From NCBI GenBank assembly GCA_913061145.1, contig CAJXUQ010000010.1, positions 1-64,000 on the forward strand: DNA of 64,000 bases. Direction: 5' to 3'. This DNA comes from an uncultured Haliea sp. Lineage in GTDB: Bacteria > Pseudomonadota > Gammaproteobacteria > Pseudomonadales > Halieaceae. Positions 42,973-64,000 of the stretch are shown in pieces. Every line of letters starts with the position of its first letter. Positions within the stretch are counted from its first letter, which is position 1. The notes under the pieces are model-generated. The model saw only the letters and a program-made list of their open reading frames with translations, ran no database searches and was not told the DNA's origin. A program made the position numbers and the translations under genes.

Positions 42973-44127
42973 ATGTATTTCGATTTTGATTACTACCGGC
43001 GCCTGCTGCGCCATGTCTGGGGGTTGAAACAGTGGCCCGGACGCCGTCGCCTGCTGCTGCGCCTGCTGCTGGTCACGCCGCTCGCCACTCTGTTCAATAC
43101 CCTGTGTTTTCTACTCGATTACATCTTCTTCCCCCGGCTGTGGACTCAGCGCGTCGTCACGCCGGTGTTCATTGTGGGGCATGCGCGCAGTGGCACAACG
43201 CTCATGCATCGCCTGCTGTCGGCGGATGGCGAGCGCTTCAGCTATTTCCTCTACTGGGAAACACTGTTCCCGTCGCTGTTGCAGAAGCGGGTCATTCGCT
43301 GGTTGGGTGCCGTGGACAGTGGTCTGCTGGGCGGCGCCCTGTATCGACGGATCAAGGCCTGGGATGACAAGACCTTCGGTCCGTTTCGCCATATTCACAA
43401 TATGAGTCTGTGGACTTCAGAGGAAGACCAGTTCGCCATGCGTGCGGCCTTCGTGACCCAGCAGTGGGCGACGGACCTGCCAGTGATGGATGTGCTGGAC
43501 CTGTTCCATCTGGATCAGATGCCCGCCAAACGCCGGCGCTGGATGCACCATTACCGGGAGCTGATCAAGCGTCAGCTCCTGCTCAATGGCGGAGACCGTG
43601 TGCACCTGAGCAAGAATCCGGTGATGAGCGGCTGGGTGGCTTCGCTGATCGAATACTTCCCGGATGCACGTATCGTCGTCATGGTGCGGGACCCGGCCGA
43701 GTGCGTGCCCAGCCTGCTCAAGCTGGTGGAGATTTCCTGGAAGAGCAAGGGCTGGCGCGCGGAGGATTACGCGCGCTCCCTGGACCTGTTGCTGGAAACC
43801 TCCTTCGAGAGCTTCCACAATCCTGCCCGGCAGCTGGCCGCGCACCCTGACACGCTCCGCGCCGTAGTGGACTACCGCGAGCTGACAGCACATCCGCGGG
43901 AGACGGTGCACGCCGCCTACCAGGCCCTGGGCATGACGGTGAGCCCGGAATTCGACGCGTTCCTGCAGGCCAATGCGGAACGTGAAAAGAGCCATCACTC
44001 CAAATTCGAATACAGCCTTGGGGACTACGCCCTGTCGCGGGAGCTGCTCGAGGAGCGCCTCGCTGACTTCTACGCACGGTATGCATGGCCCACCAGTACA
44101 CAGGAAAGTGTTTCCACTCGGTCATAA
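42973..44127 (+). CDS. Sulfotransferase family protein
   Basis: This 384-residue protein has the PAPS 5'-phosphosulfate-binding loop GHARSGTT at about residues 69-76, and the 3'-phosphate-binding region VMVRDPAECVPSLLKLVEIS. It has a hydrophobic N-terminal segment (about residues 28-55) that may anchor it to the membrane. It would move sulfate from PAPS to a hydroxyl or sugar acceptor. It begins a three-gene unit with a DUF1214-like and an SDR gene, 12 bp from the next. The presence of two arylsulfatases elsewhere in the window makes sulfation and desulfation of related molecules conceivable. Confidence 0.88.
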   Translation: MYFDFDYYRRLLRHVWGLKQWPGRRRLLLRLLLVTPLATLFNTLCFLLDYIFFPRLWTQRVVTPVFIVGHARSGTTLMHRLLSADGERFSYFLYWETLFPSLLQKRVIRWLGAVDSGLLGGALYRRIKAWDDKTFGPFRHIHNMSLWTSEEDQFAMRAAFVTQQWATDLPVMDVLDLFHLDQMPAKRRRWMHHYRELIKRQLLLNGGDRVHLSKNPVMSGWVASLIEYFPDARIVVMVRDPAECVPSLLKLVEISWKSKGWRAEDYARSLDLLLETSFESFHNPARQLAAHPDTLRAVVDYRELTAHPRETVHAAYQALGMTVSPEFDAFLQANAEREKSHHSKFEYSLGDYALSRELLEERLADFYARYAWPTSTQESVSTRS

Positions 44128-44139
44128 GAGGAACAGGAC

Positions 44140-45522
44140 ATGTCCCAGCAAGACAGCAACCACGCCACCCGCGCAGCATTGCGCCAGGCCTTCGATGACA
44201 TGATCCAGGGCTTCCAGGAGGCGCGCGATGCCATCGATGATCCAGCGCTGTATCCGCCGCCCCCCAGCGACCGCAATCTGGCGGAGGGCTACCGCTATGT
44301 GCTGGGTTTCATGCTCGCCGGCATTGAGCGCGCCCTGGGCGATCCACTGTACCCGCGGTTTCGCCGCGCCATCCAGCCCATGAACCGTTCAACGATCGAT
44401 AACGCTGACGCGGTTTACCTGGGCGTGGAGATCGACGGCAATCACAGCTATCGCATTCGCGGCCGCGCGGCTGACACCCGACACTGGCGCGGGGAGCCCG
44501 CCGCGCCGGGCAGGACGGCCCCGCAGTACGTGATTTTCGAGCTGGCCAGCGGCTACGCGGGCGACAGCGGTGAGCTGTCGGAAATGACCCCGGGCACCCG
44601 CATCAACACCGGCACCCTGGACAGCACGGCGCTGCAAGTGGCGGAGGACGGCAGCTTCGATATTCTGATCGCCCCGGAGAAACCCGACGGATACACGGGC
44701 AATTTTATCCTCAGCAAGCGCAGCAGCCGTGGTGTGGAACACGTTGGTCGCTTCCTCACCTGCCGCGAGCTGTTTCACGACTGGGAAAACCAGGATCTCC
44801 TGGACCTGGAAATCCTGCGCATCGGCTGTGAGCAGGAGCCGCGTCCACCGATAGACCCGGCTGCTGCTTTGCAGATGCTGCGTGAGGTGGGTCGTATCGC
44901 GCGCAACCAGGTGCATTTCTGGAACGCTTTCAACGCGATCACGCTGGAGACCTACGGCCAGGTACCGGGTGGCCTCAGTGAGCGCATGGGCCTGGACAAG
45001 CCGTTCATGCCGGTGAACGACATGAACCCGCCGAACGCGCTGGGGTTGGCCACGGGCGGCGGGCAGAGCAGCAATATCTACGCCGGTGGTACCTATCTGC
45101 TGGATGACGACCAGGCGCTGATTATCGAAACCCGCACCCCGGTGGAGCCACACTTTCTCGGTTTCCACCTCGCTAATCTGTGGGGAGAATCCCTCGATTT
45201 CGAGAGCTATCCCAGTAATATCAACGCCCACTTCGTCGAAACCGACCCCGATGGCGCCCGGCGTTGGGTGGTTTGCCACCGTGACCCGGGTGTGGCCAAC
45301 TGGGTCAGTACCACCGGGGTCCCGCACGGCTATACCAGCATGCGCTGGACGTATCCGGAGCCCCCGCCGAAGGAGGAGTGGCCGCAGCTGAAGGTGACGC
45401 TGGTGGCGTTCGATGCCATCAGCGAGCACCTGCCGCATGCACGCAGGGTCGGCCCTGAGGAGCGCGCTGCACAGCGGCTGCTGCGTCATCGGCATGTGCA
45501 GCGGCGCTACCGTCAGTATTGA
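44140..45522 (+). CDS. DUF1214-like protein of unknown function (copy 2)
   Basis: This 460-residue protein is homologous to the product at 10723-11967. Both share FxHW/NLWG-type strands, ETDPDGARRWVVCHRDPGVA and the terminal TSMRWTYPEPP. The copy here has an extra N-terminal portion of helices (LRQAFDDMIQGFQEARDAID). AGAGGAACAGG precedes the start. No catalytic residues are known for the family. It lies between a sulfotransferase and an SDR gene, again with an SDR directly downstream, so a partnership with SDR chemistry seems conserved. Confidence 0.78.
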   Translation: MSQQDSNHATRAALRQAFDDMIQGFQEARDAIDDPALYPPPPSDRNLAEGYRYVLGFMLAGIERALGDPLYPRFRRAIQPMNRSTIDNADAVYLGVEIDGNHSYRIRGRAADTRHWRGEPAAPGRTAPQYVIFELASGYAGDSGELSEMTPGTRINTGTLDSTALQVAEDGSFDILIAPEKPDGYTGNFILSKRSSRGVEHVGRFLTCRELFHDWENQDLLDLEILRIGCEQEPRPPIDPAAALQMLREVGRIARNQVHFWNAFNAITLETYGQVPGGLSERMGLDKPFMPVNDMNPPNALGLATGGGQSSNIYAGGTYLLDDDQALIIETRTPVEPHFLGFHLANLWGESLDFESYPSNINAHFVETDPDGARRWVVCHRDPGVANWVSTTGVPHGYTSMRWTYPEPPPKEEWPQLKVTLVAFDAISEHLPHARRVGPEERAAQRLLRHRHVQRRYRQY

Positions 45523-54915: not shown

Positions 54916-55986
54916 ATGGATGACGACCGCCGGGTGCGCTCTCTGCAGTTTCTGCCGCTGCTGTGCCTTGCAGCAGGCTTGTTTTACGCTTCTCTGGTCT
55001 CCGCCACCGCAATACCGGCGGAGTATCCTGACCGAACAGGTCACACAGTCACCCTGCACTTGTCGGCACAGGGCACCGGTGTCCTGAACCTCGCCTGCCC
55101 GGTGTCAGCGCAGCTGCTGCATGTGCGCGTCGATCGAGGTGACCTACTGAGCGCAGTGGCGCTGCAGCGGCTGTCGACGCGGCCCGCAGAGCATCGCAGG
55201 GAGGTGTTGAGCGGTCCCTTCAGCGGCGGCACGTTGCAGCTGCCCCTTCCCGCGCCCAGGACCGGGGAGCTGGCAGATTCGCGCTGCCGCATGCAGGTGC
55301 AGGGGCGGCCGGGGGCGCGGCTGACCTTCAGCGCGTTTGTGTGGCAACCCGTCACCTTGGGGTCGCGCCTGCGCGGTATGTGGAGCGACTGGACCGGCTA
55401 TCGTTCCTGGCAGCAGTATTCCATCAACGCTCATGCAGCAGTGGTGCAGACGTGGCACGGCCTGTCCCCCAACGTGCTGCTCGGCGCGGTTTTCCTGCTG
55501 GTTGGGCTGCTGGGCTTCAGGCGCTGGCGCACACGTTTTCTGTTGGGGTGGATGCTGGCCTGCTGGCTGGTACTGGATCTGCCCTGGCAATGGCGCCTCC
55601 TGCAACAGGCGGAGGCAACCCGAGCGGTGTTTGCCGGGGTGGCGGCCGAGCGCCGCCCCGGGCTGACCGAAGACGCCGCGCTCTGGGCCTTTGCCGAACA
55701 GGTCCGCACACGGGTACCCGCGCTGGAGTCCCGATTCTTCGTCGCCAGTGCCAGCGATTACGCCGGGATGCGTATGGCCTATTACCTGTATCCGCGGAAT
55801 GTGTACTGGCGTCGCGATGGTCCTGAGCTGCCCCCGGGGTATGCCCTGCACGGCGGGGACTATGTGGTAGTGGTCCAGCCAAGCGAATTGCGCCGCGAGC
55901 CGCAGTCTGGTGACCTGGTGCTGGCGGGTTTGCAGGCGCGGGTGCTGCTTGACGTGGGCGGCATTGCCCTGTTCGAGGTGCGCTGA
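54916..55986 (+). CDS. Membrane protein of unknown function, polysaccharide cluster
   Basis: This 356-residue protein has a hydrophobic N-terminus (residues about 10-30), a periplasmic-looking region with beta strands and Cys60/Cys123-type residues, and then two hydrophobic segments near residues 187-205 and 208-227. The C-terminal portion contains DYAGMRMAYYLYPRNVYWRR, a pattern I have seen in uncharacterised proteins of exopolysaccharide loci but cannot name. Its ATG at 54916 is 26 bp after greA, and its stop is directly followed by the start of the GT-C-like gene. It is likely the first gene of the surface-glycan operon. Confidence 0.75.
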   Translation: MDDDRRVRSLQFLPLLCLAAGLFYASLVSATAIPAEYPDRTGHTVTLHLSAQGTGVLNLACPVSAQLLHVRVDRGDLLSAVALQRLSTRPAEHRREVLSGPFSGGTLQLPLPAPRTGELADSRCRMQVQGRPGARLTFSAFVWQPVTLGSRLRGMWSDWTGYRSWQQYSINAHAAVVQTWHGLSPNVLLGAVFLLVGLLGFRRWRTRFLLGWMLACWLVLDLPWQWRLLQQAEATRAVFAGVAAERRPGLTEDAALWAFAEQVRTRVPALESRFFVASASDYAGMRMAYYLYPRNVYWRRDGPELPPGYALHGGDYVVVVQPSELRREPQSGDLVLAGLQARVLLDVGGIALFEVR

Positions 55987-57378
55987 GTGGACTGGCTGCG
56001 CCTGACGCTCGCTTTGCTCCTGCCGCTGCTGGTGGGCGTTCAGTGGGTCGCGCGGCTGATACCGGCGTCGCCCGGCCGGCCCTGGCTGGTGGCCGGCTAC
56101 GGGCTGTTCGCTGGCCTCATGTTCTGGCCCCTGCTGTTGCGGTTGTGGTCGGCCTGCGGGCTGCCGCTGGGATTCTGGTCGCCACTGTGGGTCGCCGCGC
56201 TGTTGCTTGTGGCTCTGCGCTGGTGGCCGCAAACGGCACTTCCGACCGTCAGGCCGGTGGCACACTCACGCCCGTTGCCGGTGATCCGTCTGCTCTGCGG
56301 CGTGTTGCTGGCGTTACTCTGCCTGCGCCTGCTGTCGCTCGGCGCTGAGGTCATCTGGCGCCCGCTGTTTCCCTGGGATGCGACGATGCACTGGGCGACC
56401 AAGGCGCGCACCTGGTTTGAATGGCAGCGCCTGGTTCCCTTCGTGTCTAACGAGGCGTGGCTGCAGCTGGGCGGACAGGACGTGTTTACCGACCACCACC
56501 CCGATTACCCGGTGACCGTGCCGCTCTGGCAGTACTGGCTGGCCACGGCGCTGGCGCGCTGGGATCCGGCGCTGATCAACCTGCCCTGGCTGGTCTGCTA
56601 CTGCAGCCTGGGCATGGCATTCTTCGGTCAGGCCAGGGCGGCGGCAGCATCCGCCCCGGAAGCGCTGGTGTTCACCTTTTTCCTGCTGACGCTCCCCTTG
56701 CTCAACACCCATGTCGCACTCGCCGGCTATGCAGACCTGTTCCTCGCGACAGCCTTCGGCCTTGCGCTCATGGCCTTGCACAACAGCAGTGTGGGCGGTC
56801 AGCGGTGGCAGTGGCCCCTGCTGGCGTTTTCTGCATTGAGCTGTTTGCTCATCAAGAATGAAGGTTTTTTCTGGATGCTGGCCCTGCTCCCCGGCCTCTG
56901 GGTCGCGCGGCGTCGCGACGCCCGGCGCGTCTTGCTGGCGATAGCCGGCATCGCGGTTGCTGTGCCTCTGGTGCTGTGGCTGTTCCCGCCGGACATTACC
57001 GTCGCGGGGCATTCGCTGCACAGCCTTGACCTGGGATACCGCCCGGGCGCTTTGTCCGGTATTCTCAGGAGCTTTCTGGTGCTGGGCAATTGGCATATGT
57101 CGCTGTGGTATCTGATACTCCTGGTGGCTCTCGCCGTGTGGCAACGCCCCGGCCTTCTGGTGGCAGCCGGTCCACTGGTCACAGCGCTGTGCGTCGCCTT
57201 CCTGCTGTTCCTGTGGCTGTTCACGGTGACTGAATTTGCCATCGGTGCGATTCGCCAGACGGCAGTAGGGCGGATCGGTCTGCACCTGATGCCGGGCGTG
57301 CTGTTCCTGTTGTTGGTGATGCACGGCCAGCTGCGCAGGTCGGCGCCGCGACCGGCCTCCACTGAGTTGGCCGGTTAG
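55987..57378 (+). CDS. Polytopic membrane protein, GT-C-type glycosyltransferase-like
   Basis: This 463-residue protein starts with a GTG directly after the preceding stop and has about ten hydrophobic helices. The first large loop carries FPWDATMHWATKARTWFEWQ, an acidic motif after the first helices as in GT-C glycosyltransferases that use lipid-linked sugar donors. A second element, DHHPDYPVTVPLWQYWLATA, also resembles the loop of such enzymes. The family is not certain. Its position between a membrane protein and a hydroxylase gene in a glycosyltransferase cluster supports a role in glycan assembly or modification at the periplasmic face. Confidence 0.72.
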   Translation: MDWLRLTLALLLPLLVGVQWVARLIPASPGRPWLVAGYGLFAGLMFWPLLLRLWSACGLPLGFWSPLWVAALLLVALRWWPQTALPTVRPVAHSRPLPVIRLLCGVLLALLCLRLLSLGAEVIWRPLFPWDATMHWATKARTWFEWQRLVPFVSNEAWLQLGGQDVFTDHHPDYPVTVPLWQYWLATALARWDPALINLPWLVCYCSLGMAFFGQARAAAASAPEALVFTFFLLTLPLLNTHVALAGYADLFLATAFGLALMALHNSSVGGQRWQWPLLAFSALSCLLIKNEGFFWMLALLPGLWVARRRDARRVLLAIAGIAVAVPLVLWLFPPDITVAGHSLHSLDLGYRPGALSGILRSFLVLGNWHMSLWYLILLVALAVWQRPGLLVAAGPLVTALCVAFLLFLWLFTVTEFAIGAIRQTAVGRIGLHLMPGVLFLLLVMHGQLRRSAPRPASTELAG

Positions 57379-57380
57379 CC

Positions 57381-58325
57381 GTGGTCGCGGCAGAACGGGG
57401 ATGGCACCTTGCCTGGCTGCTGCTGGGCGGCCTATGCCTGATTCCGGCGACGCTGCCCCTGTCGTCGTTGCCCTTGTTGAATGATGTGTTGCCTGCGCTC
57501 GCGCACCATGTCCTGCCGGAGAAGGCGCGTTATTCGCCCCTGGGTTACTGGCTGCTGTTGACGCTGGTCTGGCAGGCGCAGCGCCGGTGGCCAGTGGTTT
57601 CTGGACCGTTCCTCTCGCTGGCATTGCGCCAGGACATGCTCTGGTATGTCACGACGATGGGGCTGCGCCTGCTGTTCCTCGGTGCCTGGGCGCATGCGGT
57701 GGTGGCGTTGTACACGCATTACCTGGGCTTCCTGACGCTACCCGGTGTGGCCCACTGGCACCCCGCGGCCCAGTTCGTCCTCGGGGTGCTGTTGGCGGAC
57801 TTCACCCGCTGGCTCAGCCACCTGATTCGCCACAAGGTCCCGCTGTTCTGGGCGTTTCATTCGGTGCACCATTCCCAGCGCGATCTCAACCTGTTCACTG
57901 ACGCCCGGGTGCACCCTGTGGACCGCATGGTGTCCTCGCTGATCACCAGCTTTGCGCTGCTGATTACCGGCAATGGTGTACCGGCGGTGATTCTCTGGAT
58001 GCTGATTGAGACCCTGTACCCGAAGTTCTACCACGCCAACGTCCGGTTGGATCTGGGGCCGCTGCGTTACCTGCTGGTCACTCCGCAGTCTCACCGCGTA
58101 CACCATGGCGTGGAGCACCGCTACCACGACTGCAATTTCGGTTTCCTGTTTTCAGTGTGGGACCGGCTTTTCGGCACCCAGCACCCCGAACATCGCATCT
58201 GGCCGGCTACCGGCATTCCCGACGCGGATTTTCCCGTGGAGCGCGAGGACGGCGTGATCGGCCTGCTGAAGACCCTCGGCCGCCAGCTCGTGTATCCATT
58301 TCTGTCGCTGCACCGTCGGGCATGA
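57381..58325 (+). CDS. Sterol desaturase/fatty-acid hydroxylase family protein
   Basis: This 314-residue membrane di-iron enzyme has the characteristic His boxes: LSHLIRHK, FHSVHHSQRD, and HRVHHGVEHRYHDCNFGF. About five hydrophobic segments flank them. The family hydroxylates or desaturates lipids at the membrane, with electrons from ferredoxin or cytochrome b5. The GTG start lies 2 bp after the previous stop, and the stop overlaps the next gene by ATGA. A lipid hydroxylase in a polysaccharide cluster suggests a modified lipid carrier or lipid anchor, which is inference. Confidence 0.87.
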   Translation: MVAAERGWHLAWLLLGGLCLIPATLPLSSLPLLNDVLPALAHHVLPEKARYSPLGYWLLLTLVWQAQRRWPVVSGPFLSLALRQDMLWYVTTMGLRLLFLGAWAHAVVALYTHYLGFLTLPGVAHWHPAAQFVLGVLLADFTRWLSHLIRHKVPLFWAFHSVHHSQRDLNLFTDARVHPVDRMVSSLITSFALLITGNGVPAVILWMLIETLYPKFYHANVRLDLGPLRYLLVTPQSHRVHHGVEHRYHDCNFGFLFSVWDRLFGTQHPEHRIWPATGIPDADFPVEREDGVIGLLKTLGRQLVYPFLSLHRRA

Positions 58326-59473
58326 AGATCGGCTTCCTGATCCAGCACTTTCCACCCCATCTCGGAGGGGCGGAATGCCAGGCACGCGATCTCGCCGAGG
58401 CGCTGGTGCGCGCCGGACACGGGGTCGAGGTTGCGACCACGCGTTGTGACCGGACACAGCTCGCACGGGAGATGCGTGGCGGCGTTGCGATACGCCGCTG
58501 TATCAGCCCCGCGCCCCGCTGGCTGAAGCTGCCCTGGAACCTGGTGGCCGGTTTCCTGTTGGGCTGGCGCCTCGCCGGGAACTGTGAGCTTCTGCACGGA
58601 CACTGCCTGTCGCCCTTCGTGCTCGGTGGCCTGCTCGCCGCACACTGTCGTGGACGCCCCGTGGTGCTTAAGATCTGCTCCGTTGGGCCGATGGGAGACG
58701 TTGCGCGTCTGCGACACCCCGGGCTGTTTGGTGTGCCTTGGCGTATCGCGTCTTCAGCGGACGGGTTTCTGGTGCCCACCCGCGCGGTGGGGGATGAGTT
58801 GCAGGCAGCCGGGATCTCCCCCGCCATTATCCACCGGGTGCCGTCCCTGTTCCCGCAGGCGGTTTCGCCGCCCACCGAAATCCGGGCTGAAGACCGTCAG
58901 GGTGTTCGCGAGGTGCTTTTCGTCGGCCGCCTGCATCCGCAGAAGGGTCTGCACACCCTGATGAGGGCCTGGTCGGCGTTGGGTGGGGCCGCGGGCTGGC
59001 GCTGGGTTATTGTCGGGGATGGGCCGATGCGCCAGGAAATAGGGGACTGGATCGTGCGCGAGGGCCTGCAGTCCTCGGTCGTGCTGGCCGGCTACCAGCC
59101 AGATCCCGCCCCCTGGTTCCAGCGGGCCGATGTCTTCGTTTTCCCCTCCCATTCGGAGTCTTTTGGCAATGTGCTGGTAGAGGCGCTTGCACACGGCTGT
59201 CACGTGCTGACAACAGAGGTTGGTGTCGTGCAGGATTGGCCGGATCACGCTCCCGTGGTGCGGCTGCCTGTGGAACAGCCAGCGGCCTGGGAGCGCGCGC
59301 TGCGAGACTGGGCCGAGATGTCGAGCGGGGAGCGGGAGCGCCGTTGTCGGCTGGCCAGGTCTTTCGCGGCGGAGCAGCACCACCCCGATGCCGTGCTGTC
59401 CTGCCTGCAGAACCTGTACGCCAGCATGCTGTCGTTTGGGGACGGGCGGCATGGGGCAGGGGGCAGCTGTTGA
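58322..59473 (+). CDS. GT4-family glycosyltransferase
   Basis: This 383-residue GT-B enzyme has the N-terminal IGFLIQHFPPHLGGAECQAR motif of GT4 enzymes, with a G-G-AE acceptor loop. The C-terminal half has LFVGRLHPQKGLHTLMRAW and VFVFPSHSESFGNVLVEALA, where the Glu of SESFG binds the sugar nucleotide. It starts at ATG 58322, which overlaps the hydroxylase stop, and ends by overlapping the next gene (TTGA). It transfers a sugar from a nucleotide donor to a growing glycan. The donor and acceptor are not readable from sequence. Confidence 0.9.
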   Translation: MKIGFLIQHFPPHLGGAECQARDLAEALVRAGHGVEVATTRCDRTQLAREMRGGVAIRRCISPAPRWLKLPWNLVAGFLLGWRLAGNCELLHGHCLSPFVLGGLLAAHCRGRPVVLKICSVGPMGDVARLRHPGLFGVPWRIASSADGFLVPTRAVGDELQAAGISPAIIHRVPSLFPQAVSPPTEIRAEDRQGVREVLFVGRLHPQKGLHTLMRAWSALGGAAGWRWVIVGDGPMRQEIGDWIVREGLQSSVVLAGYQPDPAPWFQRADVFVFPSHSESFGNVLVEALAHGCHVLTTEVGVVQDWPDHAPVVRLPVEQPAAWERALRDWAEMSSGERERRCRLARSFAAEQHHPDAVLSCLQNLYASMLSFGDGRHGAGGSC

Positions 59474-61119
59474 ACGCCGGTCTGCGCCTGCAACGCCTCT
59501 GGTGGCAACTGCGCTACCTGCGCCCACGGCAGGTGGCGCAGAGGCTGCACTTGCGGCTGCGCCGTCCCGGTCGTCTGGCGCAGGTGGCCACCCCGGCGTG
59601 GCAAGCGCCCCGGCAGCCCTGGGTGACGCCGGCGCCGCTCACCGCCAGCTGGGATGAAGGGGGGTTCTTCCGGCTGCTGGGTGGCGAATTGCGCTGGTCC
59701 CCTGCATCCCTCTGGGGCGACCGGTCGCCGGGCAAAAAGCGCCTCATGGAACTGAACACCTGCAACTGGTTATGGAGCGCGGGTCCGTCCTCGGGGAGGC
59801 GGCTGCTGGCGGACTGGGTGGAGACCCAGTCCCGGCCGGACGGGCCAGGGTGGCACCCGTACATCACGTCCCAGCGCATCGTGAACTGGGTCAAATGGGG
59901 GCTGGCGGGACATGAACTCGACAGCGCGCTGCGCGCGAGCCTGGCGCAGCAGTTGCGTTACCTGGAGCCGCGGCTGGCCTTTGACGAATGTGATCACAAG
60001 CTCATCAACAATGCCAAGGCACTGCTGTTCGCGGGGCACAGCCTGGCTGACCCGCAGGCCTCGCAGTGGCGGGCCCGTGGTCTGCGTTTGCTCGCGCAGT
60101 ATCTGCCCGAGCTGCTGCTCGACGATGGTGGCTACTCGGGGCGCAGCCCGATGTACCACAACGCCTTGCTGCTCGACCTGTTGGACATGATTAACCTGTT
60201 GCGCGCCTATGGTCAGCCTCTGCCTGACGGGTTGGAAACGCGTTGCAACGCCGCGCTGCGCTGGTCGCGTGCCCTCTGCCATGCGGACCATGAGCCAGCT
60301 CTGTTCAACGATGCGGCACTCGACGTGGTTCCCGGCGCGGATGCCCTCACGGCCTATGGCCGGCGACTCGGCCTGCAGGGTGCTGTGGATGACCAGGAGA
60401 CCGCCAGCTGTTGGCTGCCGGCGTCCGGTGTGGGCCGTCTGCGGGCGGGCCCCGCGCTTCTGCTTGCCGACCTCGGTCCTCTCGGGCCGGACCATGCGGC
60501 CAGTCACGGGCACGCGGGCACACTGGGTTTCGAGTTGTCGCTGGCGGATCAGCGGGTATTGGTCGATACGGGACTGTCGACCTACGAGGACCTTCGCTAT
60601 CGCGCCTACGAGCGCAGTACCGCCGCCCACAATACGGTGGTGGTGGACGGGAAAAACTCTTCCGATGTCTGGGGGCTGTTCAAGCTGGGACGGCGCGCAC
60701 GGATCGTCGCTGCGGGCTATGCGCCGGGTGACATGGGTGGTGTCCTGCATGCCTCGCACGACGGTTACTCGCGTGCCCGGTCGAGGCTGATTCATCACCG
60801 TGAGTGGTCACTCTGTGCCGATCGCCTGACGATCGATGATGTGCTGGAGGGCGCGGGTGAGCACCGTGTGGATGTCTACTTTCACCTGCACCCCGACCTT
60901 ACGGTTGAGCTGCGCGGATCCCATCTGGCCAGTATCGGTCTGCCGGATGGCCGGTGTCTTGAGCTGGCGGTGGATCCGCAGCTCACACTGGGCGTGGAGG
61001 ATGGCTACCGCGCTACCCGCTTCGGCGAGCGCCAGCCGAGCAAGGTGCTGCGCGCACAGGCAGAGCTCACATTCCCTGTGCGTCTGCGGCATGTGCTCAC
61101 GGGATGGCGCTGCAACTAA
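59470..61119 (+). CDS. Heparinase II/III family protein
   Basis: From the TTG at 59470, whose bases overlap the glycosyltransferase stop, the product is about 549 residues. A helical toroid domain (NTCNWLWSAGPSSGRRLLAD, then ERLAFDECDHKLINNAKALL-type helices) precedes a beta domain with ASHGHAGTLGFELSLADQRV and TAAHNTVVVDGKNSSDVWG. The His-containing loops match the heparinase II/III fold. No signal peptide is seen. Such lyases appear in bacterial exopolysaccharide clusters, where they trim or edit the polymer. The first 16 codons are uncertain, as no ATG start exists in frame nearby. Confidence 0.85.
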   Translation: MNAGLRLQRLWWQLRYLRPRQVAQRLHLRLRRPGRLAQVATPAWQAPRQPWVTPAPLTASWDEGGFFRLLGGELRWSPASLWGDRSPGKKRLMELNTCNWLWSAGPSSGRRLLADWVETQSRPDGPGWHPYITSQRIVNWVKWGLAGHELDSALRASLAQQLRYLEPRLAFDECDHKLINNAKALLFAGHSLADPQASQWRARGLRLLAQYLPELLLDDGGYSGRSPMYHNALLLDLLDMINLLRAYGQPLPDGLETRCNAALRWSRALCHADHEPALFNDAALDVVPGADALTAYGRRLGLQGAVDDQETASCWLPASGVGRLRAGPALLLADLGPLGPDHAASHGHAGTLGFELSLADQRVLVDTGLSTYEDLRYRAYERSTAAHNTVVVDGKNSSDVWGLFKLGRRARIVAAGYAPGDMGGVLHASHDGYSRARSRLIHHREWSLCADRLTIDDVLEGAGEHRVDVYFHLHPDLTVELRGSHLASIGLPDGRCLELAVDPQLTLGVEDGYRATRFGERQPSKVLRAQAELTFPVRLRHVLTGWRCN

Positions 61120-62615
61120 CGACGCAGGGACCGACCCTCACCCACTGCAGCAGGTCCGCCGCAGAGCTCGCTCAGGGTGGCCGCGATATCCAGGACGCTG
61201 CTGTCGGCGGGCAGCTGACCTGGCATCGTGCGCGGAGGAGCCAGGGGCTCGCGCAGGACAAGCATGGCGTGTTGATTGTGGGCGCCACTCCACTGCGGCG
61301 GGTGCGAGACCTCCAGCCGGGTCAGCCCCGACCCGGTTACGAAGCGCACGGGTGCGCGCTCGTTCCACTCCACCAACAGGTCCGGCATGGCACCCCTTTC
61401 GCCGCCCGGGTAGTGTTCGCAGGTTTTCAGAACACGGGTGACCAGAGGCTCGTCTGTCTCGGCGTTGCGCAGTCCGGCGAGCTGTCTGGCCAGGTGGTCC
61501 AGGTACGCCGGGTACGCCTGTGCGCTGACCTGGCCGTTCGCTTCCCGGCCTTCAAGGTTGATGCGCAGCCCCCCGATATTGTCGTTGGAACGCACCGGAA
61601 AGCAGCGCCGGTTGCTGAAATCTGCGCCCTGCAGTTTCTGGTCAGCCCAGTGTCCGGCGCTGAGCAGCTGCTTTCTCCAACCGGCGGGCAGTGTTCTCCA
61701 CAGTTGGGTCAGGGTTCGACGCAGTGTGCCGGCTCCCCGCGAAGGCGCGGGCTCCAGGGCGTCCAGCAGTTCACCCATCAGCGCCGGGTGCGCGTGGCTG
61801 GGCCCCATCCCGGGCCCGGCGAAGACCAGCAGCGCGCTATCGCCAGGCAGCTGCGCGATGATATCCCCCGCGGCACGGTCCAGTGCAGCATAGACCGAGA
61901 GCAGCGGGTCGCCCCGGGTACCGGCGGCATGGCCCGGATAGTCGGGATCATGGCAATGCCAGAGCTGATGCCCCGCGCAGTGTCCGGCGCCAAGGCCCGC
62001 GACCAGCAGATCCCAGTCGCAGCACCGCATCCGGTTCAGTACCAGGTCGCGGCTCCCGGCGATGCTGTCCAGCAGCTTGCTGGCCACCACCCCACCGTCA
62101 TGCGCGGTGCTGTGGGTAAAGCGTTGCGTGATACAGGGGCAGGCGTCGGGCTGTAACCCTGCTGCGGCGAGCTCATCCTGCAGGCTCTCGGGATACAGCG
62201 CCTTTTCCTCCCGGTAGTTGAAATGGCTGCGCCATCCAGAGACATAGCAGGCTTCCGATCCGCAGGGGGGCGGCGCCTTGGGCGCATCGAGCACGACCAC
62301 CCTGCGCCCCTGTGCGGCCAGCGCTGCCCAGAAAGGCGGGGCGTTGCTGTCGGTCTGGTGGCTTTTCAGGGTGCTGTAATCATCATCGCCAAGCTGCTGG
62401 TGGTAGAAGCGCCCGTGTGCCTGTGGGGGCAGGCCGGTATACAGCGATGGCAGCAGGGCGTTTGCACCGATACCGGGTAGCAGGTTGATATCGCCCTGCA
62501 CACCGCTTTCGCACAGGGCTGCCAGATGTGGCAGCTGTCCGCTTTGCATCCCGCTGCGCAACAGGTCCGGCTCTACGGCTTCCAGGATCAGCAGGCAGGC
62601 CCTGGCGGCGCTCAT
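61116..62615 (-). CDS. Alkaline-phosphatase-superfamily protein with eroded active site
   Basis: This 499-residue protein aligns by order with the type I phosphodiesterase/nucleotide-pyrophosphatase family, but several metal-binding and catalytic positions differ. Where relatives have a metal-binding Asp, E12 stands in LLILEAVEP. The nucleophile Thr/Ser position is Ala or Asn (GIGANALLPSLYTG). GHCAGHQLWH (211-220) keeps His residues, but the Asp-His of the second metal site reads Gly-Pro in AGPGMGPSHAH (266-276). It has no signal peptide. It may be a binding or regulatory relative. The gene converges with the heparinase gene; the two stop codons overlap at 61116-61119. Confidence 0.7.
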   Translation of the reverse strand: MSAARACLLILEAVEPDLLRSGMQSGQLPHLAALCESGVQGDINLLPGIGANALLPSLYTGLPPQAHGRFYHQQLGDDDYSTLKSHQTDSNAPPFWAALAAQGRRVVVLDAPKAPPPCGSEACYVSGWRSHFNYREEKALYPESLQDELAAAGLQPDACPCITQRFTHSTAHDGGVVASKLLDSIAGSRDLVLNRMRCCDWDLLVAGLGAGHCAGHQLWHCHDPDYPGHAAGTRGDPLLSVYAALDRAAGDIIAQLPGDSALLVFAGPGMGPSHAHPALMGELLDALEPAPSRGAGTLRRTLTQLWRTLPAGWRKQLLSAGHWADQKLQGADFSNRRCFPVRSNDNIGGLRINLEGREANGQVSAQAYPAYLDHLARQLAGLRNAETDEPLVTRVLKTCEHYPGGERGAMPDLLVEWNERAPVRFVTGSGLTRLEVSHPPQWSGAHNQHAMLVLREPLAPPRTMPGQLPADSSVLDIAATLSELCGGPAAVGEGRSLRR

Positions 62616-63760
62616 GGTGTACTCCGCTCGTTGGCGAGGATTGTCCGGGCAAGCTGGTGCCAGTCCTCTGTTCCGGCAGCGTCGCGCGCTGCCTGTTCCA
62701 TGGGCTGGCGAGGGGTGCCGTCAAAGAACTTCGCGATGGCAGCCGCCAGCGCCGCCGGGTCTTCTGCGGGTACGACATAGCCCGTGACCCTGTCGACGAC
62801 GGCGTCGGGCAGAGCGCCGCTGCGGGTGACGACCACCGGGCGGCCGTGGCTGTGGGCCATCCTGACCACACCCGAGCCGGTGGCAGAGCGATACGGCAGG
62901 ACCACAAGGTCAGCGCTGGCAAAGTAGATGGCGATGTCCTCTTCGGCAATGTAGCGGTTTTCCAGACGGACCTGTTCGCACAGGTCCAACTCGGTAATCA
63001 GTGTATCCCAGACCCCTGCATCGCCCCAGATCTCTCCGGCGACAACCAGCTGGCAGGGCAATTTGGGCCGGAGCAAGGCGAGTGCGTGGAGCAGGGTGTC
63101 CAGCCCCTTGTAGTGTCGAACAAAGCCGAAAAACAGCAGTGTGGGGGCGTCGGCGAGGCCGAGTTGCGCCCTGGCGTCGGCGCGGTCTGGCGGCTCGCGG
63201 TCTCCCAGCGGGTAGGCAGGGTGGGGCTGGTAGTGTACCGCCCTGGCGCCCAGCAGTGCCTGCAGCGTGTGCATCTCGCTGCGTGCGTGGACGATCCAGG
63301 CATCGCCGCGGCGCAACACAGTCCGGGCCAGCAGCCGGGCGAAGCGCTGCTCTTCGTGCCCCACCGTGTTGTGCACGAGAAAGACGATACGCGCAGCGGG
63401 GCAGCGCCTGCGCAGGAGCACCAGTAACGACCAGACCATGGGTGTCCAGAAGACATGCCACCAGGGAATGACGATGCAGCGGGGCCTGGCTCTGGCGATA
63501 ACCTTGGCGCCTGTCCACCAGGACAGCGGGGACAGCGGTGCCAGAAGGCGCTGCGCATCCTGCTCGTACAGTGTCAGGTTGTCGGGCGCGCGATCGTCAC
63601 CGCCCGGATACAGCCAGCGCGGGTACTGGTGCCGCAGGCTGATAAACAGCGTCGGGCCGAGATCCCGCAGGGCGCGGTACAGGTAGGTGGTGTGGCTCGC
63701 AATGCCTCCTTTGAATGGCCATCCGGGGCCAATCAGGACAACGCTGTCAGTGCTGCTCAT
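62612..63760 (-). CDS. GT4-family glycosyltransferase
   Basis: This 382-residue GT-B enzyme has GPGWPFKGGIASHTTYLYRA for the acceptor side, FFGFVRHYKGLDTLLHALAL for the nucleotide-sugar domain and VVLPYRSATGSGVVRMAHSH as the donor-binding block. Its stop overlaps the phosphatase-like gene (62612-62615), and its start overlaps the GT2 gene at its 5' end. All three genes are transcribed on the minus strand, convergent with the left half of the cluster. It should add a sugar to the same glycan. Confidence 0.9.
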   Translation of the reverse strand: MSSTDSVVLIGPGWPFKGGIASHTTYLYRALRDLGPTLFISLRHQYPRWLYPGGDDRAPDNLTLYEQDAQRLLAPLSPLSWWTGAKVIARARPRCIVIPWWHVFWTPMVWSLLVLLRRRCPAARIVFLVHNTVGHEEQRFARLLARTVLRRGDAWIVHARSEMHTLQALLGARAVHYQPHPAYPLGDREPPDRADARAQLGLADAPTLLFFGFVRHYKGLDTLLHALALLRPKLPCQLVVAGEIWGDAGVWDTLITELDLCEQVRLENRYIAEEDIAIYFASADLVVLPYRSATGSGVVRMAHSHGRPVVVTRSGALPDAVVDRVTGYVVPAEDPAALAAAIAKFFDGTPRQPMEQAARDAAGTEDWHQLARTILANERSTP

Positions 63761-64000
63761 GGGCGATCTGCGCTTGCCGGTCGCCGAGCTCGAGGCGGCG
63801 CACTTTCTCCAGGGTAAGCTCCTGGATCTGGCGGTTCTGGGAAATCAGGTCAGATAGCAGCCCCGCGACAAACAGCACGAAACCCATGGTCAGCAAGACG
63901 CCGCCCAGCAGCAGTGACTGGATATGGCCAGCCCCGTCGCCGCCTGCATAGCGAATCAGGAAGCGCAGCACGGGCAGCGAGCCTAGCGTCGAAAGCGTGA
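63747..64000 (-). CDS. GT2-family glycosyltransferase, C-terminal part (cut by the window edge)
   Basis: The open frame runs from the window's right edge to 63747 on the minus strand. It reads TLSTLGSLPVLRFLIRYAGG, then GHIQSLLLGGVLLTMGFVLF, and ends in a charged coiled tail (SQNRQIQELTLEKVRRLELG). This is the usual end of membrane-anchored DPM1-like GT2 enzymes, with the two C-terminal transmembrane segments visible here. The catalytic domain lies outside the window. It overlaps the GT4 gene by 14 bp. Confidence 0.82.
   Translation of the reverse strand, partial: TLSTLGSLPVLRFLIRYAGGDGAGHIQSLLLGGVLLTMGFVLFVAGLLSDLISQNRQIQELTLEKVRRLELGDRQAQIAHEQH

Follow-up and report, generated by a model that had tools for sequence, protein, structure and literature searches.

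The systems closest to the one described here are O-antigen and exopolysaccharide loci of the Wzx type that include a cytosolic heparinase-like protein (for example L149, L150, and L152, from other families of the same order). In these loci, a heparinase-like protein of about 550 amino acids has a family 4 glycosyltransferase (GT4), an initiator of family PF02397, a flippase, or Wzz encoded beside it (8/8). We analysed a 64,000-nucleotide stretch from an uncultured Haliea sp. (Halieaceae, Gammaproteobacteria), hereafter the window, which forms the first part of a contig of 114,135 bases (G000:C10:1-64000). At its right-hand end begins a cluster of nine genes for two membrane proteins (M1 and M2), a hydroxylase of the FA_hydroxylase superfamily (FAH), two GT4 enzymes (GT4a and GT4b), a heparinase II/III-like protein (HEP), a phosphodiesterase-like protein (PDE), a family 2 glycosyltransferase (GT2), and a Wzx-like flippase. 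The cluster differs from the known loci in several respects: none of the eight contains FAH, the Asn of their NH motif is Asp in the clade of the window, and the window locus lacks both an initiator and a bi-domain oxidoreductase and is placed between greA and yhbY.

As judged from sequence comparison, these nine genes are inherited together in a few marine bacteria. We favour the explanation, to which we give about an even chance, that they form a surface-glycan locus, variable between strains and of the lipid-linked type that uses a flippase, whose dedicated hydroxylase would act on the lipid or the lipid-proximal part of the pathway. The parts are of known kinds; their combination seems new, and the link with the hydroxylase seems specific to one lineage and undescribed in the open-access literature searched, where no such cluster is named.

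Distribution and co-inheritance of the cluster

The nine genes are found in identical order and orientation at the greA-yhbY site in three Halieaceae genomes besides that of the window (G003, G001, and G024), and a further genome (G006) encodes greA-M1-M2-FAH-GT4a up to a contig end. The cluster is not a chance assembly, because order and orientation are kept for nine genes in the former and for the first four in the latter. None of the nine is present between greA and ftsJ in three further members of the window's genus (G004, G005, and G007) or in six other genomes of the family (G008, G010, G013, G018, G020, and G028). G002, in which a contig ends in greA, was left out of this site comparison; its genome has no FAH orthologue.

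FAH was searched in 58 relatives, 140 genomes of the family, and 390 genomes of the order, the widest level covered. Orthologues (E 1e-30 or better) were detected in six of the 140 family genomes, four of them among the eight genomes of the window's genus. The sixth genome (G789) belongs to another genus and encodes FAH-GT4a-HEP, with PDE convergent to HEP, at a different site. Identities to the window copies are 54% for FAH, 46% for GT4a, 47% for HEP, and 39% for PDE; neither greA nor carB was found on the 16 kb around this relocated core, and the contig edge holds an M1-like piece (35% identity over 48 residues). The core retains its order and convergent layout after relocation and is therefore the strongest sign that these genes work together. 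On these comparisons, the cluster is strain-variable, inherited as a unit, and built from known kinds of parts. A scan of 84,980 species genomes with two strict peptide patterns identified four loci; G789 is not among them, so the scan is not exhaustive. On plasmids, 234 records match FAH, none with one place covering 80% of it.

The genes are not equally conserved. FAH and GT2 have the highest best-hit identities of the cluster in G024 (74.3% and 74.2%), where the others reach 60-68% and M1 47%. Among the cluster genes seen in G006 and in G789, FAH again ranks first; GT2 (97%) is ahead of FAH (92%) in G001, and GT4a is level with FAH (98%) in G003. The high conservation of FAH and GT2 in G024 is weakly consistent with what would be predicted for a fixed lipid substrate.

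The hydroxylase and its relatives

The FA_hydroxylase superfamily (the sterol desaturase family) is characterised by an eight-histidine di-iron motif (HX3H, HX2HH, HX2HH). FAH (57381-58325, plus strand) belongs to it with 101.1 bits against a cut-off of 31 (PF04116, E 8.2e-29) and has HX3H at residue 147, HX2HH at 160, and HX2HH at 238, with all eight histidines present in 6/6 orthologues. Family and motifs thus point to a di-iron-type membrane hydroxylase as the predicted activity. No match to FAH was found in PDB.

In a 45-row tree (43 rows different), the six cluster copies group in one private clade with support 100/99, and the stem of this clade measures 0.94 changes per column. FAH lies directly before GT4a in all six genomes and between M2 and GT4a in five. 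Outside this clade, no match in the 390 order genomes scores above 121 bits, while the lowest-scoring of the six reaches 375. Members of the superfamily as a whole are frequent: 53 of the 58 relatives, the window's own genome included, have some match. Using tblastn (1e-3), no other cluster gene was detected at 39 loci of outside FAH relatives (the best hits, 2.0-3.8 kb each with about 1.5 kb per flank, two being repeats of the same gene). The same search, applied to 28 stretches that surround HEP, PDE, and M2 relatives, found no FAH; these stretches include L096 (a continuation of L095) and loci without an established glycan context. The first-pass annotation had called a lipid hydroxylase in a glycan cluster unusual, and none of these 28 stretches around relatives of other cluster genes holds one. 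It had also proposed that the association would fall if the hydroxylase were scattered outside such clusters in relatives; this holds for distant superfamily members, whereas the orthologous clade is confined to its place before GT4a.

The best NCBIfam match of FAH is OlsE, the ornithine lipid hydroxylase, which shares the superfamily. We rejected this identity: FAH scores 75.7 bits against a cut-off of 475 (90 bits for the copy in G789), the locus is without ornithine-lipid genes, and FAH adjoins glycan genes instead. According to a section of PMC3972451, OlsE hydroxylates the ornithine part, and superfamily members can thus act on the polar head group, not the chain.

Separately, one genome (G226) has three equal-scoring matches of the FA_hydroxylase type (C6:5672-6175, C31:49337-49840, and C34:6193-6696), and the same score recurs in G101; these are perhaps a duplicated or mobile copy.

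Glycosyltransferases, flippase, and chain initiation

A locus of the Wzx/Wzy type would be expected to encode glycosyltransferases and a flippase, and the cluster has two GT4 enzymes, one GT2, and a Wzx-like flippase. GT4a (58322-59473, plus strand; PF13692, E 2e-27) and GT4b (62612-63760, minus strand; PF13692, E 2.3e-22) both match GlcN_PG_synth, a glycolipid synthase model, below its cut-off, this being one of many GT4 models matched. GT2 (minus strand; PF00535, E 9.4e-24) crosses the window edge: the last 254 bases of the window (63747-64000) hold its 3' end, and the gene extends to contig position 64721 (L003:1147-2121). Its nearest PDB entries are polyprenyl-phosphate sugar transferases, namely dolichol-phosphate-mannose (DPM) synthase (E 1.7e-11) and ArnC (E 9.6e-8), the latter aligning over most of the GT2 length. 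A third member of this group, AglJ, matches residues 5-298 of GT2 with 121.4 bits but below the NCBIfam cut-off of 325. GT2 therefore resembles transferases of the polyprenyl-phosphate-sugar type. The flippase, the ninth gene, lies beyond the window at contig positions 64780-66204 (L003:2180-3604, minus strand) and scores 39.4 bits against a cut-off of 28.2 (PF01943, E 6e-10).

The initiator families were found elsewhere in the genomes tested. PF02397 is present in 7/8 genomes. PF00953 is present in 8/8, each genome having two or three copies, of which MraY is presumably one. An initiator acting in trans is therefore available.

Heparinase-like and phosphodiesterase-like proteins

HEP (59470-61119, plus strand, TTG start) contains a Hepar_II_III domain (PF07940, 186.7 bits against 24, E 6.4e-55; PF16889, 28.4 bits against 22). 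No hydrophobic segment was seen in a hydropathy scan, which fits an intracellular lyase. By sequence, HEP has the same fold family as heparinase III (PL12; PDB 4MMH and 5JMD; E 1.3e-8). The catalytic residues of heparinase III (4MMH) are Tyr294, His424, and Asn240, and Asp or Glu takes the place of this Asn in some other lyases, as described in part of PMC12088678. Tyr229 and His346 of HEP align with the catalytic Tyr and His in 5/5 cluster copies, but Asp175 stands at the position of the neutralising Asn240 in all five, and HEP lacks a hydrophobic signal segment. Eight HEP relatives have an NH motif at the Asp175 position, where the MAFFT alignment is shifted by one residue and the pairing was made by eye. 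Against the two HepC models, HEP scores 23.5 and 21.7 bits, with cut-offs of 600 and 700. Of 234 order genomes, 17 (the window's own and G024 among them) have a HEP relative. Eight of 15 non-cluster loci were inspected, and in every one Pfam confirmed a neighbouring glycan gene (PF02397 in five, GT4 in L151, a flippase in L153, and Wzz in L147).

The metal site of the alkaline phosphatase superfamily comprises a metal-binding Asp and a DHG motif. PDE (61116-62615, minus strand) is a member of this superfamily (PF01663, 47.3 bits against 23, E 2.8e-12) in which the site is altered, with Glu12 in place of the first metal Asp and GPG at 267-269 in place of DHG in 5/5 cluster copies. Among the aligned relatives from outside the cluster, the first Asp is present in 6/6, DHG in 0/6, and the His of DHG in 3/6. 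The first 112 residues of PDE align with phosphonoacetate hydrolase (PhnA, 1EI6; E 5.8e-4), but the altered residues and a score of 17.2 bits against 407.55 for the PhnA model set it apart. A profile of the PDE branch had no PDB match at 1e-3.

Beyond the cluster clade, we detected PDE relatives in six of the 390 order genomes and five of 369 class genomes. A Pfam-confirmed GT2 adjoins the PDE relative in three of 12 loci (L074, L127, and L128), transferases elsewhere being assigned by weak BLAST matches or by eye only. None of the 12 has a further cluster orthologue; they gave weak glycosyltransferase and flippase matches and carB-type chance matches only. As an observation in its own right, L073-L076 and L127-L132 carry a phosphodiesterase-fold branch with a degenerate DHG site, often beside transferase genes, and in L073 and L075 the protein is paired with one of ~300 amino acids of no assigned family.

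The membrane pair M1-M2

M1 (54916-55986, plus strand) has an N-terminal hydrophobic segment plus further ones, pairs with M2, and is conserved in five cluster genomes. M2 (55987-57378, plus strand; no named family) has about 12 hydrophobic segments by hydropathy scan but no family match that would mark it as a Wzy polymerase; it is a putative periplasmic-side sugar transferase or polymerase. Relatives of M2 are found in seven of the 369 class genomes, its own included, where a second copy lies on contig C2. M1 is adjacent in five of the seven M2-relative loci outside the cluster (L095, L098, L099, L101, and L103); L100 ends at a contig edge, and no M1 was seen in L102. An initiator of family PF02397 adjoins the pair in three of the seven (L095, L098, and L101).

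The second pair in the window's own genome (G000:C2:200859-206552; L095:13966-19552) adjoins genes for an initiator (PF02397) and a transferase of the WecG/TagA type (PF03808); an integrase gene of the phage type (PF00589) is found at a distance of about 2 kb. This region is probably a second glycan locus.

Gene layout and neighbourhood

All genes named in the first-pass annotation are present at 54916-63760 by open reading frame (ORF) calls and Pfam, GT2 crossing the edge. Nearly every junction touches or overlaps: M1 and M2 abut, FAH and GT4a share ATGA, GT4a and HEP share TTGA, HEP and PDE overlap convergently by four bases, PDE and GT4b by four, and GT4b and GT2 by 14. The gap between the convergent greA and yhbY (L003:3627-3941, minus strand; PF01985) is filled by the nine genes, with 26 bases from greA to the start of M1 and 22 bases from yhbY to the start of the flippase. 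Read-through into the cluster from both housekeeping genes may thus be possible. Rightward of the flippase follow yhbY, ftsJ, ftsH, folP, glmM, and tpiA.

The packing with many overlapping starts and stops that had been noted at the outset is borne out by ORF calls, family matches, and inspection of the junctions. The genes of the 9-kb set are real, but rather than a single operon they make up two runs that converge, and the set extends past the window through the flippase to yhbY. Its designation as a glycan cluster agrees with the GT4, GT4, GT2, and Wzx-like flippase genes and with the relatives of HEP, PDE, and M1-M2 beside glycan genes elsewhere. The suggested extension to the right revealed the flippase; the ORFs scanned to contig position 82600 include neither an exosortase nor a recognised polymerase or export gene. 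An exosortase/PEP-CTERM exopolysaccharide locus was rejected, as this range lacks an exosortase and the XrtA-type glycosyltransferase model TIGR03088 gives 66.6 bits against 409.

Elsewhere in the window, a sulfotransferase-family gene (42973-44127; PF13469) is followed by a 460-residue ORF (44140-45522) without a Pfam match at 1e-4, both surrounded by thiolase, acyl-CoA dehydrogenase, and short-chain dehydrogenase genes.

Proposed pathway and alternatives

In the pathway that we favour, a chain would be started on a polyprenyl carrier by an initiator encoded elsewhere, GT4a and GT4b would add sugars, and the flippase would turn the product outward. GT2 would make a polyprenyl-phosphate sugar, to be used by M1-M2 on the outer side to extend or modify the glycan. 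HEP may edit, trim, or clear chains containing uronic acid in the cell, and FAH would hydroxylate the pathway lipid (an acyl or prenyl chain or a neighbouring group), yielding a hydroxylated lipid-linked product. In an improbable variant of this pathway, FAH modifies the carrier itself, and GT2, the flippase, and M1-M2 are adapted to a hydroxylated polyprenyl (or other) carrier lipid of the pathway's own.

Several observations weigh against the favoured pathway. No initiating sugar-phosphate transferase is found among the locus genes, and G024, which carries the cluster, has no PF02397 match. No recognised polymerase is present among the ORFs scanned, nor are genes for export or chain length of the Wza/Wzc type; for Wza/Wzc and exosortase, the scan covered the locus and the ORFs to contig position 82600, and no genome-wide search for either was made. 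Neither M1 nor M2 matches a Pfam or NCBIfam model at E 0.1, and their profiles have no significant match in PDB. The AlphaFold models of M2 have a mean confidence (predicted local distance difference test, pLDDT) of 48.6 from the single sequence and 42.5 from five close rows, too low for a fold search. The substrate of FAH, and hence the modified lipid carrier or lipid-linked product proposed in the first-pass annotation, is something that we infer, and the conservation of FAH could be due simply to its His sites.

The greA-yhbY gap carries unrelated cargo in other members of the family, namely FeoA/FeoB (L056, by Pfam; L055, by eye), a TonB receptor (L057), and an endonuclease-family gene (L060), and passengers are therefore possible, a further point against a dedicated hydroxylase. 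FAH might then act on a general membrane lipid (of the fatty acid, amino lipid, hopanoid, or carotenoid type) and merely be carried along by a glycan locus of the usual kind. Superfamily members occur widely in other contexts, and OlsE, the named model to which FAH comes nearest, albeit far below its cut-off, is an amino-lipid hydroxylase. We consider this reading unlikely, since FAH lies between M2 and GT4a in five genomes, keeps its place immediately ahead of GT4a in the relocated core of the sixth, and its clade is never without the cluster in the genomes searched. The missing polymerase, chain-length, and export genes, together with the GlcN_PG_synth matches, would also suit a free glycolipid without polymer, in which GT4a and GT4b glycosylate a membrane lipid hydroxylated by FAH and the flippase exports it. 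However, these GT4 matches are generic, and a heparinase-fold protein whose relatives share clusters with Wzz and initiators of family PF02397 points to a polymer or oligosaccharide, which makes the glycolipid quite unlikely. Least probable to us is that the group hydroxylated by FAH is not a lipid but an acyl or amino-acyl substituent on a glycan sugar; the action of OlsE on ornithine, in the same section of PMC3972451, indicates that the superfamily can modify a polar head group, but no acyltransferase that would add such a group was recognised in the locus.

Implications

Our results bring to notice a branch of phosphodiesterase-fold proteins whose metal site is altered and an unnamed membrane pair, M1-M2, found repeatedly next to sugar-phosphate transferases in several families of the Gammaproteobacteria. 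A membrane hydroxylase of the predicted di-iron type is tied to lipid-linked glycan synthesis by a co-inheritance that has survived relocation and about 50% divergence. If FAH does modify the carrier itself, these bacteria would keep the hydroxylated carrier of this pathway separate from the undecaprenyl phosphate that peptidoglycan and other glycans require.

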